45,078 nt of DNA. It comes from Candidatus Woesearchaeota archaeon. GTDB lineage: Archaea; Nanobdellota; Nanobdellia; SCGC-AAA011-G17; JACPNG01. Shown piece by piece: positions 8,478 to 15,367 of this stretch. The notes under the pieces are model-generated. The model was given only the letters and a program-made list of their open reading frames with translations, had not been told where the DNA came from and made no database searches. Location: the NCBI GenBank assembly GCA_016185605.1, contig JACPNG010000022.1, forward strand, positions 34,139 to 79,216, written 5' to 3'. The translations under genes and the position numbers were made by a program. Position 1 is the stretch's first letter. Each line of letters begins with the position of its first letter.

Positions 8478-10376
8478 TCATTGGTTTGGGGTTCCGCTGA
8501 ATCTGCTTTTGTCTCCGCCAATCTGGCCGCCTAATTCTTTTGGCAGGCTGGCAAATCCTCCCCCATATAATTCCTTGAAATGCACTTCTGGCAATAAATC
8601 TCCAAATCCATATCTGTAGACTCCTTCTGTATCTCTTATATATCCCCATCTTGTTTGGGTATCCATTGTGTAAAGTGGAGTATCCAAATTGCCCATTGCT
8701 TCTATTATTGGATCTGTCTTGAAGTGCTGCCACCAGCCTCCCCCTTCATGAACTAATCTTCCTTTTTCTATTTTAAATCCTTTTTTCTCTAGTTCTTTTA
8801 ACTGCTCCTTAATCTGTACATTGCCCATTCCAGCTGGGAGATGGACATCTCCAAATCCAAAATTATCTGTAATGTGAACTTGCTTGACTAATGGGGCTAT
8901 TTTTTTTGCCTCTTGTATTATTTCTTGCTCTGTAAATCCTTGCTTTCTTAGCATATTTATATGCCCAACATCCCAAGTAACTCCAATAAATTGAGATGCT
9001 AATCTTCTTGATTCCTCTTCTGATAAATTTTTTTCACTCATTAATTTCTGGGCGAATAATTTTCTGCTTTTTTCTATTGTATCTTTTAATCCTTCTGACC
9101 TAGATAATGTCCATTCTGGAAAGACATTTTCAACAACCGTTATAGGGGTATTTTTTCCGTATTTTTTATAGACTTCAAATGTTGCGTTTGCCACTGTTTC
9201 TGCTGTTTTGTCTTTTGAGAATTCATCTGTGGGCTTCCATAATTCTGGAGTTGGCAAATTTGAAAGTGTGGGAACAATATTATTTAAAATTATTTTTTCC
9301 TTTTTTTCTATTTCTTCAAACTTTCTCTTCAATATTCCTTCATCTTTATAATCTCTAAACTCATCGATAACTCTGGATTTTTCATTTCCTATTTTGCCTA
9401 ATTCTTTTGTAAGTTCATTAAAATTATTTAGAGCCGTTTTCTGTCTTGGATCTATTATTTCTTTTGGACCATATTTTTTTATTTTATCATTTATATCAAT
9501 AAGAGTCATACCTATGTTTCTATCTATTTCATTTACATGAGATTGTAATGAATTGATATTATTTTGAATTATGTTAAATTCTTCTTTTTGTTGATCTGAT
9601 AAATCAAGACCTTTTCCTATTCTATCTTTTATCGGTCCAAGAACTGCTTGTTGATTAATTAGTCTTTCTTGTACTTCAGCCCTTTCTTTTTGCAGGGTAA
9701 ATATTGGTAGGATGGTTCTATTCTCCCATTCTGTTCTATTTATTGATCTTTTTCTTACTTCGGGAGTCCATATCTCATCTTGTCCACCAAATCCTTTTCT
9801 TGTATCATACCTTAATGATTGAACCTGTCCTGTATCTTGATTGACAATTCCCATTGTGTCTTCTACTCTCATATTATTATTTCTTATTCTTTCAGCTTCT
9901 CCTGGGTCTGCTAAATTTTTTAGGTCTTTATCTTGTAACTGCCTCCATGTTCTTCCAGGAACCCCTCCGGAAGCATGGAAATTAACAGGAGTATTTCCAT
10001 TTGGATCTAATAAATGCCCTTTTTCTAATGCATCTATAAATTGCCTTTCAACTTCCTTTCTATGCTGCTCGCTCCAGCCGTCCCTAGAAAAGCCAGCAGG
10101 ATCCATCTCTTGTACAGGGGCGTGTAAATCAACATTTGCTCCTGTTAATTTTGTTAGTCTTCCAATTTCTGAAAAATGCTCTTTTGGAATGCTCTGAAAA
10201 ATATCTGGGCTTATATTGCTAATATCCAATCCTAGAACTCCAGCATTTAATTTTTGGGTGGCTTCTGCTATTTGGTTTGCTGTCTGTGGATTTGTTGTAG
10301 AGGCAAAAGCCCCTACAGGAATATAATACTTTGAATCCAAACTTCCTTCATATTTGTCAAAAAATACATCCACCAT
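8478..10376 (-). CDS. Xylose-isomerase-like / AP endonuclease 2-type TIM-barrel protein
   Basis: VDLHAPV, NFHASGG, VVENVFPEW, GVTWDVGHINM, KQVHITDNFGFGDVHLPAGMGN, LVHEGG; charged helical insertion in the middle. Confidence 0.7.
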   Translation of the reverse strand: MVDVFFDKYEGSLDSKYYIPVGAFASTTNPQTANQIAEATQKLNAGVLGLDISNISPDIFQSIPKEHFSEIGRLTKLTGANVDLHAPVQEMDPAGFSRDGWSEQHRKEVERQFIDALEKGHLLDPNGNTPVNFHASGGVPGRTWRQLQDKDLKNLADPGEAERIRNNNMRVEDTMGIVNQDTGQVQSLRYDTRKGFGGQDEIWTPEVRKRSINRTEWENRTILPIFTLQKERAEVQERLINQQAVLGPIKDRIGKGLDLSDQQKEEFNIIQNNINSLQSHVNEIDRNIGMTLIDINDKIKKYGPKEIIDPRQKTALNNFNELTKELGKIGNEKSRVIDEFRDYKDEGILKRKFEEIEKKEKIILNNIVPTLSNLPTPELWKPTDEFSKDKTAETVANATFEVYKKYGKNTPITVVENVFPEWTLSRSEGLKDTIEKSRKLFAQKLMSEKNLSEEESRRLASQFIGVTWDVGHINMLRKQGFTEQEIIQEAKKIAPLVKQVHITDNFGFGDVHLPAGMGNVQIKEQLKELEKKGFKIEKGRLVHEGGGWWQHFKTDPIIEAMGNLDTPLYTMDTQTRWGYIRDTEGVYRYGFGDLLPEVHFKELYGGGFASLPKELGGQIGGDKSRFSGTPNQ

Positions 10377-10377
10377 T

Positions 10378-10821
10378 TTATGAAATTATCTCCCTTTTTG
10401 TAGTATAAACTTTTTCTTCTTTTTTATCCTCTTTTTTTCTCCCTATTTCATCTGGCTGATATTTAGGTTCGTATAATTTTTCAGGATGGTATTTTAAGTC
10501 TGGTTTATTATCTTCTTTACGGGTGATTGGATTTAATGGGGATGTTATTTCATATTCGATTTTTTCCCTTCTTGTAAGGGGAGCTTCTGAGGCTGTCTCC
10601 TCTAATTCAGATTCAGGGCTTCTTAGGATATCTCTTTGTGGCTTTTGTATTGTTTTTTCTTCTGTTTCCTCACTTAATATTGTTGGTTCTGTAGAAACTC
10701 TTATTACAACATCTCCCTGAGATATATCATTAAATTCCTCATCAACTAAATCATCTATAGTTTCTTCTAGTTCTTCTTTATCTTCTTGTTTTTTCCTGTT
10801 ATTTTTATCTTCTACTAACAT
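10378..10821 (-). CDS. Acidic, probably disordered protein
   Basis: Glu/Lys-rich composition; in operon with the TIM-barrel gene. Confidence 0.55.
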   Translation of the reverse strand: MLVEDKNNRKKQEDKEELEETIDDLVDEEFNDISQGDVVIRVSTEPTILSEETEEKTIQKPQRDILRSPESELEETASEAPLTRREKIEYEITSPLNPITRKEDNKPDLKYHPEKLYEPKYQPDEIGRKKEDKKEEKVYTTKREIIS

Positions 10822-10953
10822 TAAATATTAAGGAATTAACAACTTATAAATATTTTTAATAAAAATTTTAGATGAAAGTATTAGTTAATAATTTATTACT
10901 AAATAATAGTTAATAATAGTAAGATTTATAAACTAATTTTATTTTGTTTTAAC

Positions 10954-11622
10954 ATGCAAGAAGAATTCAGAATAGAGGATGGATTTGAAATTAGAATAGA
11001 AGCTAGGTTGAAGAATGCTGCTTTAGTTAAAGCTAGAGAAGAATTAGGATTAACACAGGAAAAAGCAGCAGAACAAATAGGAATTAACAAAAATGTATAT
11101 AATAGCTATGAATGTATGAGAAACTATCCTACTGAAAAGCATAGATTTATTATTTGCGATTTTTATACTGCCAATGGAGTTCCCCTATCTGAAGAAGAGA
11201 CATTTCCTAGAGAGTTAAGAGAAATTAGAGTTAAGAAAAGAGTTGTTGATAGAGTATTATCAAGAGCAGAATTAATTTCATTAACTGGAGTTGACAAAAA
11301 ATTATTGCCTTCTGTTAGATTGGATGAGGGTAAATTTAGTGAAACTAATGAGTTAAAAAGTAAACTTGAAAGTGTATTATCTGACTTACCTTATGATCTT
11401 CAGATAGTTGTTAGACTAAGATATGGCATTGATGATGGTACGGGAGAGATACATGGAATAAGAAGTAAATATGTTGAATCTCAACATGATGAAATGACTT
11501 ATGAGCAAATCGGTGAATATTTAGGTATTAGTCGTGAAGAGGCTAGGCGACGTGAAATTATGTTATTTAGAAAAATTAGAAATCCATTAAGAAGTAAGAG
11601 TTTAAGAGATTTTTTAGATTAA
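10954..11622 (+). CDS. XRE-type HTH protein with C-terminal sigma-70 region-4-like domain
   Basis: N-terminal VKAREELGLTQEKAAEQIGINKNVYNSYE (XRE HTH); C-terminal VVRLRYGIDDG...MTYEQIGEYLGISREEARRREIMLFRKIRNPLRSKSLRDFLD parallels sigma-70 region 4. Confidence 0.75.
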   Translation: MQEEFRIEDGFEIRIEARLKNAALVKAREELGLTQEKAAEQIGINKNVYNSYECMRNYPTEKHRFIICDFYTANGVPLSEEETFPRELREIRVKKRVVDRVLSRAELISLTGVDKKLLPSVRLDEGKFSETNELKSKLESVLSDLPYDLQIVVRLRYGIDDGTGEIHGIRSKYVESQHDEMTYEQIGEYLGISREEARRREIMLFRKIRNPLRSKSLRDFLD

Positions 11623-13152
11623 TTACCAGCTTAGCATTCCATGCGCTTTTTTATAGATATCATATACAGTAAAAGTTTCAGCTGCAGCTGTATCTTGGGC
11701 TCTTTTTTTTAACTGTTCATCAATATAAGCAGGAGATAATTCAACCCTAAGCAAATCCCTGATTGTTTCAGCCATATCTTTTATTGGAACTGTTAAATCC
11801 TTGGCTGAATTGTAAACAGATTTTATTAAAGGAGTAGGCTTTACTTTTTTAGGCTCTTCTTTTTTCTCATCCTTAATAAATTCCTGCAAGTCATCATTAA
11901 TCTCCCTTAATGTTGATCCGACAACCTCGTCAACTAATTCTAATCCCTCGAATAATTCTTGGTCTTTTAGATATTTTAGATCTTCTTCCTTAAACACATA
12001 AGATCTTATTCTGACTTCAGTTCTTCCCCCCTGGGTATACTGAACTCCTGACTGGGTCTGCCTTACTGAATGGGGAACGCTTCTAAACATAAATTCCATC
12101 TCAACACATGCATAATATTTAGTGTCTGATTTTGCATTTTCAGGAAGTTCCCTAGAATCAATCATATCCTGGACTCTTACTGGCTTTTTGCCAAATACAC
12201 TAAGATGCAACTCCATATTATTGAATACATTAACTATGTTTGGGCTTCTAAAGTCTTTCATTCCTAATTTCTGGGCAGCTATTATATATGGCCTTGTCCA
12301 GTCTGCATATAATTTTAATGCCCCCACTTGAGATTTTAGATATGATCTTTCTATATTGAATCTTTTTCTTAATTCCCTCTCAGAATAATCCTTCCATTTA
12401 CTGTATTCTTCTAATCTAGGCTTTAATATTCTTTTTACCCTGTCATTTAAATCCATTTTTTCAACTTGTTTTGAATTAGCTGCATACAAAAAAGCATCTC
12501 TTATAGTGACAAAATTCAATTGCTGCGATAATGAATGTATTGCTCCTCTGCCTCTTTTTATGTCTACATTATCGAGCCACATCTGCTTTAATCCCAATTC
12601 AGCTGTTTTCCTTATTTCTTCATCTGGAGACTTTAAATCATCATAAGTTTCTAATCTTATCTTGAACTCTTTTAGGTCATATATTAAATTTATAATGCTT
12701 CTAATTAGAGTATTAATTGTTCCAAGCATCTTCATTGCCTGCTCCTGCATTCTTGTTGCTCTTGAGCCTATATCTCCATAGAATGCAGAGCCGACAGAAG
12801 CCTCAAAATCCTCTTTTGTTTTATCAACTTCAAAACCCCTTCCTGCAGGGGGCATGCTTTTTAAAAAATCCAAAAGCCAGAAATAAACTGGCTCTATTCC
12901 CTCTGCCAATGAGTCATATCCAAGAAAATATTCAACACCCTTGTTTTCATTTTTTATCTCTTCTATCAATAGTTCCCTAACCTGCCTTTTTTTGCTCGGC
13001 TCTTTTACTTTCTCCAGTAATCTTTTTAAGAAATCTATCTTATCAGAAAATTTAGACATCTCTTTTTTAATATCATCAATTGAATTTTCTTCTATTCTTT
13101 CTAATCTTTTTTCAGTAGCAAATAACTGATTCAAAAATCCCTTAGCAGCCAT
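11623..13152 (-). CDS. Large helical protein of unknown function
   Basis: Long uninterrupted 509-aa ORF; no recognised domain. Confidence 0.7.
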   Translation of the reverse strand: MAAKGFLNQLFATEKRLERIEENSIDDIKKEMSKFSDKIDFLKRLLEKVKEPSKKRQVRELLIEEIKNENKGVEYFLGYDSLAEGIEPVYFWLLDFLKSMPPAGRGFEVDKTKEDFEASVGSAFYGDIGSRATRMQEQAMKMLGTINTLIRSIINLIYDLKEFKIRLETYDDLKSPDEEIRKTAELGLKQMWLDNVDIKRGRGAIHSLSQQLNFVTIRDAFLYAANSKQVEKMDLNDRVKRILKPRLEEYSKWKDYSERELRKRFNIERSYLKSQVGALKLYADWTRPYIIAAQKLGMKDFRSPNIVNVFNNMELHLSVFGKKPVRVQDMIDSRELPENAKSDTKYYACVEMEFMFRSVPHSVRQTQSGVQYTQGGRTEVRIRSYVFKEEDLKYLKDQELFEGLELVDEVVGSTLREINDDLQEFIKDEKKEEPKKVKPTPLIKSVYNSAKDLTVPIKDMAETIRDLLRVELSPAYIDEQLKKRAQDTAAAETFTVYDIYKKAHGMLSW

Positions 13153-13231: not shown

Positions 13232-13747
13232 ATGATAACAAGGGGTCAGAACTTTATAATGCATAATACAGGGATAAAGATACAGCAGAAAGGGATATAT
13301 GACTTAAAGGATCTTCTTAAGACAATACAAGTATTCTTCGAGGAAAAAAAATATACATTTCAACTATCAGAAACCCAGGATAAAGCCAGAGACAAGGGAT
13401 ATGAATTAATTATTGGGATGAAATCAGATAGGGATGTAGATGATTATGTAAGATTTCATATTGACATTCATATGCTGATTATTGAGATGGAAAAAGTAAA
13501 GGTAAAAAACAAAAATCTTGACCGAGGAAATATGGACATTAATTTTAAGGCGTATCTTTATTTGGATTATAAAAACAGGTGGAATAAAAATTTTATGTCA
13601 AGATTCTTGAATTTGATATACAACAATTATATAATTAAAACCAAGATAAAAACTGAATATGAGAGAAATCTTTATATTGATTTGATTGACTTACATAATT
13701 TGGTAAAAGAAAGATTAGGATTATATACTCATTATTATGGGGCATAA
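13232..13747 (+). CDS. Orphan family paralog 1
   Basis: Similar to 13759 and 14278 products (YDLKDLLKTIQVFFEEKKY...DDYVRFHIDI...YKNRWNKNFMSRFLNLIYNNYIIK). Confidence 0.7.
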   Translation: MITRGQNFIMHNTGIKIQQKGIYDLKDLLKTIQVFFEEKKYTFQLSETQDKARDKGYELIIGMKSDRDVDDYVRFHIDIHMLIIEMEKVKVKNKNLDRGNMDINFKAYLYLDYKNRWNKNFMSRFLNLIYNNYIIKTKIKTEYERNLYIDLIDLHNLVKERLGLYTHYYGA

Positions 13748-13758
13748 AGAGAGGTTAG

Positions 13759-14241
13759 ATGATAAAAAAAGTAATTGTAGTTCCTTCAACTAGGTTTAGG
13801 CATGTCGGAATACTGGATTTGACTGAATTCTATAGATGGCTGAAAAGATGGCTTGAGTTTAATGGATACTGGACAAACTCAAATGAAAAACAATATATTG
13901 AGACAATGCTGCCTGGAGGGGCAAAAAAAATAGAGTTTACCTGGGAGTGCAGAAAGCAAAAAAGCCCTGACTTTACTTATGTCATACCAATAACATTTGG
14001 TTTTATAGGAATAAAAGATGTTGAGATACAGAGGGGAGATAAAAAGATAAAATTACAGAGGGGAGATTTTGATATTAGAATGAGAGCATACTTGGAAAAA
14101 ACAGGTGATACAGGGGCATTAAGGGAATTATACGAAAGATATATAATAAAGAAAAGAATAGATGAATATAAATTAGATTTGTATGACAAGTTCTATAAAT
14201 TAATTGAGGATATGAAGGAATTTGCCAATGTTTACACTTAA
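13759..14241 (+). CDS. Orphan family paralog 2
   Basis: LDLTEFYRWLKRWLEFNGYWTNSNEKQYIE...RELYERYIIKKRIDEY. Confidence 0.7.
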   Translation: MIKKVIVVPSTRFRHVGILDLTEFYRWLKRWLEFNGYWTNSNEKQYIETMLPGGAKKIEFTWECRKQKSPDFTYVIPITFGFIGIKDVEIQRGDKKIKLQRGDFDIRMRAYLEKTGDTGALRELYERYIIKKRIDEYKLDLYDKFYKLIEDMKEFANVYT

Positions 14242-14277
14242 CGAAAACATTAAAAACAAAATATACTCCTTAAAACC

Positions 14278-14772
14278 ATGCCAGAGATAGATTATGTAAT
14301 TCCAGCTATAAAATTAGAGCAAAGAGCAGTATTCAATTTTGCTGATTTATATAAATTATTAAAATCATGGTTTAACCTCCATAATTATGATTTCTATGAA
14401 AAAGAATATATTGATGTGCTGAAAGAAGGAGGAGAAAAAAGCGATTCAATAAAATGGGAAGCTGAAAGAAAAGTAGATGACTATGTAAAATTCCATATTG
14501 AATTAAGAATAAAATTAGCTGATGTCGAAGATGTTAAATTAAAAGATAATCTTGTCTGCAAGGGAACATGCGGCATAAAATTCGAGTCTTTTCTGGAGAA
14601 GGATTATGATAATAGATGGGAGAGGAATTTTTTCATTAAATTTTTAAGGGCATTATATGACCATTTTATATTAAGGCCTAAATTAGAAAGGTATGCAGAT
14701 GAGCTTAAGCAAGAAACTTATGATGTTTTTGAACAGGCAAAATCATTTTTAAAATTGAGGGGTGAGAAATAA
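14278..14772 (+). CDS. Orphan family paralog 3
   Basis: FNFADLYKLLKSWFNLHNYDFYEKEYID...DDYVKFHIEL...YDNRWERNFFIKFLRALYDHFIL. Confidence 0.7.
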   Translation: MPEIDYVIPAIKLEQRAVFNFADLYKLLKSWFNLHNYDFYEKEYIDVLKEGGEKSDSIKWEAERKVDDYVKFHIELRIKLADVEDVKLKDNLVCKGTCGIKFESFLEKDYDNRWERNFFIKFLRALYDHFILRPKLERYADELKQETYDVFEQAKSFLKLRGEK

Positions 14773-14963
14773 TGTGGCCATTTAGCTTATTTAGGAGAAA
14801 AGAAGAAGAAACTGAAGTCCAGGACCAATTTTACGGCACAGATGATTATTATGAAAGGGATATGGAGATGGTGATAAGCAAATTAGATTTGGTGAATGCA
14901 AGACTAGAAAACATAAACACAAGATTGCAGAGATTAGAAGAGTTTATGAAAAGAATTCCATGA
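14772..14963 (+). CDS. Small coiled-coil protein
   Basis: Overlaps both neighbours; C-terminal heptad-like region (VISKLDLVNARLENINTRLQRLEEFM). Confidence 0.6.
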   Translation: MWPFSLFRRKEEETEVQDQFYGTDDYYERDMEMVISKLDLVNARLENINTRLQRLEEFMKRIP

Positions 14964-15367
14964 AAAAATGGATATTAACATTTCTTGTAGTTATTCTTGA
15001 CCAGTTAACCAAATCATATTCTAATCTTATTGATTTTGATTTTTGGTTATTAAGCATAAGACAGATAAAAAATACAGGAGCAGGGTTTGGAATATTAAAA
15101 GATTATAGGTTTTTGTTGATTTTTATTTCGATTATTGTGATGTTTATAGCAATTTATTACTTGATTAATGCCAAAAATAAATATTCAATTTACGGATTAA
15201 GCTTTATTCTCGGAGGGACAATAGGAAATCTAATAGACAGGATATTTTTTGGGTATGTAAGAGATTTTATTGACTTTGGATTCTGGCCTGCTTTTAACTT
15301 AGCTGACAGCTTTATTACTATTGGGGGGATTATTCTTGTTTACTTGCTAATAACTGATAAAATATAA
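14960..15367 (+). CDS. lspA: Signal peptidase II-like (lipoprotein signal peptidase)
   Basis: LDQLTKS, IKNTGAGFGIL, GGTIGNLIDRIFFGYVRDFIDF, FNLADSFITIG: the characteristic LspA motifs with both catalytic-type Asp positions. Confidence 0.85.
   Translation: MKKWILTFLVVILDQLTKSYSNLIDFDFWLLSIRQIKNTGAGFGILKDYRFLLIFISIIVMFIAIYYLINAKNKYSIYGLSFILGGTIGNLIDRIFFGYVRDFIDFGFWPAFNLADSFITIGGIILVYLLITDKI

Follow-up and report, generated by a model that had tools for sequence, protein, structure and literature searches.

Transcription in archaea starts with TBP and TFB, not with sigma factors. PMC8204110 reports that sigma-70 factors (fam00359) are prevalent among Woesearchaeota, excludes mis-binning as the cause and finds no anti-sigma factor. 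A functional test of a DPANN sigma-70 was not found in the open-licence literature. The protein described here resembles these factors in that it occurs in the same archaeal groups, is derived from sigma-70 and is present alongside TBP and TFB. However most DPANN sigma-70 proteins examined span regions 2 to 4, whereas this one consists of region 4 only, positioned behind an XRE-type helix-turn-helix (HTH). An XRE-sigma4 fusion is not described in the passages of PMC8204110 consulted, nor was one found in the open-licence literature. The presence of sigma-70 in these archaea is already known; the XRE-sigma4 architecture is new here.

Other described systems resemble parts of the fusion protein. 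Region 4 of RpoD/SigA (PF04545) has the same C-terminus and RxPxRSxxLRxFLD tail, but the fusion protein carries the XRE domain in place of regions 1.2, 2 and 3, alters the equivalents of Q589, R554, R586 and K593, and has a 16-residue insert before 4.2. With XRE/Cro-type regulators (HTH_3) it shares an N-terminal HTH above the cut-off and a divergent position beside a likely target; its C-terminal half, however, is sigma region 4 and not a ligand or dimerisation domain. Also related are proteins in which sigma region 4 is fused to the bacterial RNAP alpha C-terminal domain (L148:1468-2640, minus strand; L150:1477-2682, minus strand; L151:1231-1764, plus strand). These reuse region 4 without a detected region 2, as the fusion does, but with alpha-CTD and not XRE as the partner. 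They are encoded in G054, G021 and G053, three archaeal genomes from the order of the window genome; both domains are above the Pfam cut-off, and the G054 gene lies a few genes from EF-2 and adjoins a methionyl-tRNA-synthetase-like gene.

The XRE-sigma4 gene is located at 10954..11622 on the plus strand of the window, i.e., the whole stretch of 45,078 nt that was analyzed. It is an ORF of 222 aa with an ATG start, delineated by Pfam matches and homologues. The XRE-type HTH comprises approximately residues 22-75 (11017..11178, plus strand), with boundaries inferred around an HTH_3 match to residues 26-53 (33.3 bits, cut-off 23). Sigma-70 region 4, together with a primary-sigma C-terminal tail, makes up residues 134-222 (11353..11619, plus strand), as determined from profiles, PDB sequences, BLAST and alignment; the Pfam Sigma70_r4 match covers residues 142-209 (33.4 bits, cut-off 24.1, E 3e-8). 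An earlier note on this DNA had claimed a sigma-70 region-4-like domain fused to an XRE HTH. Both matches exceed their curated cut-offs within the one ORF and the second half is most closely related to the C-termini of RpoD/SigA, which upholds that claim. Pfam shows no Sigma70_r2 in the protein, and regions 1.2, 2 and 3 are not detected.

It should be noted that a weak region 4 match alone proves little, because the TFB of the same genome (G000), taken as a specificity control, itself matches Sigma70_r4 at 23.5 bits, just under the cut-off. The sigma identity of the second half is based on the extended match and on the profile ranking. The top NCBIfam models for this half are sigma70-ECF and RpoD C-terminal models, and they reach residues 221-222. 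The best PDB sequence match is RpoD/SigA region 4 (E 3e-9, residues 135-222), and sigma factors account for nearly all of the best 60 PDB chains listed. Enterococcus SigA displays 40% identity over residues 134-222 by BLAST, up to the last residue. The resemblance had also been said to extend into a RHPSRS..LR.FLD tail, and indeed the protein retains every one of the E. coli sigma-70 residues R599, P601, R603, L607, R608, F610 and L611. The suggested comparison of Sigma70_r4 with generic HTH families was run, and sigma models and sigma chains rank highest. A generic HTH without a sigma link is ruled out by the Pfam, NCBIfam and PDB rankings and the alignment.

An AlphaFold model of the fusion protein has a mean pLDDT of 49, with region 4 at about 72-84; in view of the low overall confidence, only the region 4 fold was used. 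A Foldseek search with this low-confidence model as query gave only sigma/RNAP holoenzyme chains among the top 50 listed, none with E <0.001. Between the two domains is a linker with an ISL...LLP motif (residues ~105-133; 11266..11352, plus strand) that is conserved with L097 and L002. RpoD-type NCBIfam matches begin at residues 117-134, and the linker might be what is left of sigma region 3.2. Alignment places the 16-residue insert between 4.1 and 4.2 at residues 164-179 (11443..11490, plus strand), and the full-length sigma of G031 is likewise longer near the 4.1/4.2 junction. Genome G024 encodes proteins that consist of region 4 alone, and one of them has a linker like that of the fusion. 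Small region-4-only proteins of 107-120 aa are encoded at L081:6552-6911, L002:1483-1803 and L111:1480-1821, the first of which follows an archaeal NAC-like gene at a distance of a few genes.

The residues that read the -35 element are retained to different degrees. In the window protein the equivalents of R562, R584, E585 and R588 are kept and those of R554, R586, Q589 and K593 are changed. The G074 homologue keeps the equivalents of E585, R586, R588 and Q589, and its reading helix is lost only in part; in the alignment, G276 and G024 have lost most of this helix. In the full-length archaeal sigmas compared, TRERxRQ is kept or nearly so. The C-terminal tail is poorly kept in G074 and only in part in G276. 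In a comparison of the window and G276 proteins, conservation is highest in the XRE domain, with 43.8% identity over residues 1-75 as compared with 30% in region 4. These conservation estimates are based on three or four sequences. They suggest that the XRE domain is the reader shared by these proteins and that region 4 is a second module, reused and less tightly constrained, although region 4 of the window and G074 proteins may still read DNA.

The host genome G000 (Nanoarchaeota-class) is 857 kb in 26 contigs and ~92% complete, with the window on contig C18. It has both TFB and TBP, and the window itself encodes an archaeal DnaG and an archaeal-type GluRS (equivalog matches). Bacterial rpoB (TIGR02013), which would denote a bacterial core RNA polymerase for the fusion protein to act with, is above cut-off in none of eight genomes scanned, G000 and seven relatives. 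In G000 the model gives no match of any score, and the genome's own Rpo2 may fall in the missing part. Sigma factors are unexpected in archaea, and a bacterial or chimeric contig, or a sigma match that is merely a generic HTH, would account for the observation. This explanation is already contradicted and can practically be set aside: archaeal DnaG and GluRS equivalogs lie inside the window, the adjoining 509-aa gene is a core gene in 37 of 40 genomes, two other archaeal genomes carry the fusion, one on the contig of an archaeal ribosomal/RNAP-subunit operon and one between EF-2 and EF-1alpha, and the profile ranking favors sigma. Contamination or chimerism, raised beforehand as something to check, is ruled out by gene content and synteny, and the attribution to an archaeal genome stands. 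The base composition of the gene was also considered as a sign of foreign origin. Its GC is 0.309 compared with 0.303 for other genes and its GC3 is 0.157 compared with 0.234 elsewhere (sd 0.057); the composition is native.

A look for further sigma regions elsewhere in the genome had also been proposed. At E 0.001 the profile search detects no Sigma70_r2 in the ~92% complete genome G000. Since no region 2 is found in either protein or genome, XRE-sigma4 is not a sigma factor by itself.

The stop codon of the XRE-sigma4 gene abuts, base-to-base, the stop codon of the 509-aa lineage core gene (11623..13152, minus strand), the first gene of the interrupted operon. This core gene occurs in 37 of the 40 genomes examined for it, one of them G000. 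In G002, G007 and G029 this gene, a disordered gene of ~200 aa and a TIM-barrel gene follow in succession on one strand, mostly touching or overlapping; G002 has one extra small gene ahead of the disordered gene. In G031 the TIM-barrel gene comes directly after the 509-aa gene. The second and third operon genes in the window are a probably disordered, divergent neighbor of 147 aa without a Pfam match (10378..10821, minus strand) and a 632-aa, weakly xylose-isomerase-like TIM barrel (8478..10376, minus strand; 29.5 bits, cut-off 31.1). Here the XRE-sigma4 gene, on the opposite strand, splits the 509-aa gene from the disordered gene.

Archaeal TATA boxes are present ahead of both divergent genes: TTTATAAA (10925..10932, plus strand) at -29 from the XRE-sigma4 start codon, and TTTATAAG (10843..10850, minus strand) at -29 from gene 10378-10821. 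Several other genes of the window likewise have a TATA-like element at -29 to -31. Both of the only two exact copies of TAGTTAATAAT in the window lie between the two TATA boxes, at 10882..10892 and, 25 bp further on and just upstream of the TATA box, at 10907..10917 (plus strand). These are candidate operator sites, as a lead only: the repeat is AT-rich in a 30% GC genome, near-matches number 10 with 7.5 expected, and the repeats could be due to chance. No Rfam RNA is found near the gene.

Other genes of the window deserve mention. A bacterial-type lipoprotein signal peptidase is encoded at 14960-15367 (Peptidase_A8, 110 bits), and genes of similar appearance adjoin the 509-aa core gene of L090 and of L091. 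At 13232-14772 is a row of three genes that resemble one another and belong to an uncharacterized family, the first without a Pfam match; in L086, L088, L015 and L118 look-alikes neighbor the 509-aa core gene or sigma genes. A partial DDE transposase-like ORF is present at 260-781 (DDE_Tnp_1, 20.8 bits, below cut-off).

Both domains were matched in only two of the 103 genomes of the order (G000 and G074). The 378 genomes of the class yielded one more fusion, in G276, and a 371-genome phylum sample none. This gives four copies in three genomes from three families, and the fusion is a small archaeal family. The complete G074 copy, with region 4 and HTH_3 both above cut-off (HTH_3 48.1 bits), shares its contig with genes for archaeal RNAP subunit D, uS11, uS4 and uS13; a second G074 copy, L080:8153-8563, runs off its contig ahead of region 4. 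The G276 copy is located, together with a PAP2-like gene, between EF-2 and EF-1alpha, and has region 4 above cut-off and HTH_3 below (19.3 bits). The window protein is 34% identical to that of G276 over residues 11-217 (E 5e-32), and 27% identical to that of G074 from its own order. A copy closer to the other-order homologue than to the own-order one fits either transfer or an old duplication followed by loss.

Searches of mobile elements gave no carrier of the fusion. Neither the window protein nor the G276 protein has a fusion-covering match in 50,697 phage and 72,556 plasmid records, and the long phage and plasmid matches of the G074 protein that were examined are RpoD or full-length sigmas, aligned from region 3 into region 4. 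No source was found among these phage or plasmid records. A match of the G276 copy in Streptomyces is a full primary sigma. One genome-contig scan with the window protein found no match and a second scan found only G276 itself, and pattern scans of viral contigs, which detect close relatives only, were empty. For the origin of region 4, three bacterial sigmas were compared with archaeal ones by BLAST; bacterial SigA scores 58.5 bits and the archaeal sigmas 52.8, too close to decide between an archaeal and a bacterial source. The earlier note had proposed horizontal capture of a bacterial or phage regulator. The homology to a bacterial primary sigma stands, but a direct capture is not required, since archaea of this class commonly carry sigma-70 genes; no phage or plasmid carrier was found and the composition is native.

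The fusion could also be a leftover of a mobile element or archaeal virus, for example an immunity-type repressor stranded in the chromosome. Its very patchy distribution, its insertion into a conserved gene run, the two copies in G074 and the closeness of the window copy to that of G276 would all fit such a history. It seems unlikely, however, with a native composition, no integrase or virus gene seen beside the gene, and no relative in the phage and plasmid sets or, within the reach of scans limited to close relatives, in viral contigs.

Full sigma-70 proteins are frequent in related archaea. Sigma70_r2 is found in 64 of 190 relatives, 62 of them above cut-off, with ten of ten control bacteria positive and none of four control archaea. 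Many of the full-length archaeal sigmas have a near-bacterial region 2 and the TRERxRQ helix. Several of the sigma genes lie on DNA that is clearly archaeal. The G047 sigma has regions 1.2, 2, 3 and 4 above cut-off, and its gene follows EF-2, EF-1alpha and uS10. The G031 sigma gene comes after a ribosomal and RNAP-subunit operon, that of G012 is near exosome and proteasome genes, and that of the single-contig genome G138 is immediately upstream of an archaeal-type uS15. Full-length sigma-70 homologues amid archaeal ribosomal-protein or elongation-factor genes are seen at L118:6896-7930, L014:8861-9724 and L015:8992-10026, one of them in G138.

The number of these sigmas, their near-bacterial region 2 and reading helix, the position of several among archaeal ribosomal-protein or elongation-factor genes, the sigma4-alphaCTD fusions within the same order and the tail residues retained by the window protein raise the alternative of a hybrid system. 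Sigma-70 modules would dock on the archaeal RNA polymerase, and the fusion would be an XRE-targeted adaptor that recruits or blocks the polymerase through sigma4. We consider this somewhat unlikely. There is no detectable full-length sigma in G000, the tail is poorly kept in G074 and only in part in G276, and the bacterial flap partner is absent, because no bacterial rpoB is above cut-off in the eight genomes. More improbable still is a second, bacterial-style layer of promoter recognition on the archaeal RNAP, composed of sigma-70 regions and alpha-CTD, with XRE-sigma4 as an operator-targeted adaptor.

In bacteria the sigma tail residues contact the beta flap. As the window protein keeps these residues, it might be an effector directed at the RNA polymerase of a bacterial partner. 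The earlier note had likewise raised interference with a bacterial RNA polymerase, which is not supported. An effector role is very unlikely: no secretion signal was noted, the promoter is archaeal, the gene sits within a chromosomal gene run, and the relatives lose parts of the sigma-like surface.

We tentatively prefer another function, quite possibly that of an archaeal, chromosomal, local transcription regulator built from two DNA-binding modules. The fusion is not a promoter-melting sigma, because it has no part for binding core polymerase or for opening the -10 element. The XRE domain would be the specific reader, binding its own upstream region at the candidate repeats at 10882 and 10907 beside the TATA box. 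Besides its own gene, the regulator would probably control the divergent genes 10378-10821 and 8478-10376, a target guessed from position only. Region 4 would be retained as a compact additional module, which in this species may contribute a DNA contact, and its C-terminal helix might offer a docking surface.

Several observations favor this local regulator. Both domains are above curated cut-offs and the architecture recurs in related archaea. A TATA box is at -29 of both divergent genes, and TBP and TFB are present and no region 2 is detected. The operon is split by XRE-sigma4 and its downstream genes have their own TATA-like start; in four relatives its genes lie together on one strand. XRE is more conserved than region 4 between the window and G276 (44% as compared with 30%), and the -35-reading residues, kept in full-length archaeal sigmas, are largely lost in G276 and G024. 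Against it, the candidate repeats could be chance, and the window and G074 proteins retain some of the -35-reading residues.

Region 4 placed behind a plain XRE domain provides a small protein, easily expressed and assayed, for a test of sigma region 4 on archaeal promoters and polymerase. Bacterial upstream-promoter recognition has a second half, for which the sigma4-alphaCTD fusions in sister genomes pose an equivalent question.
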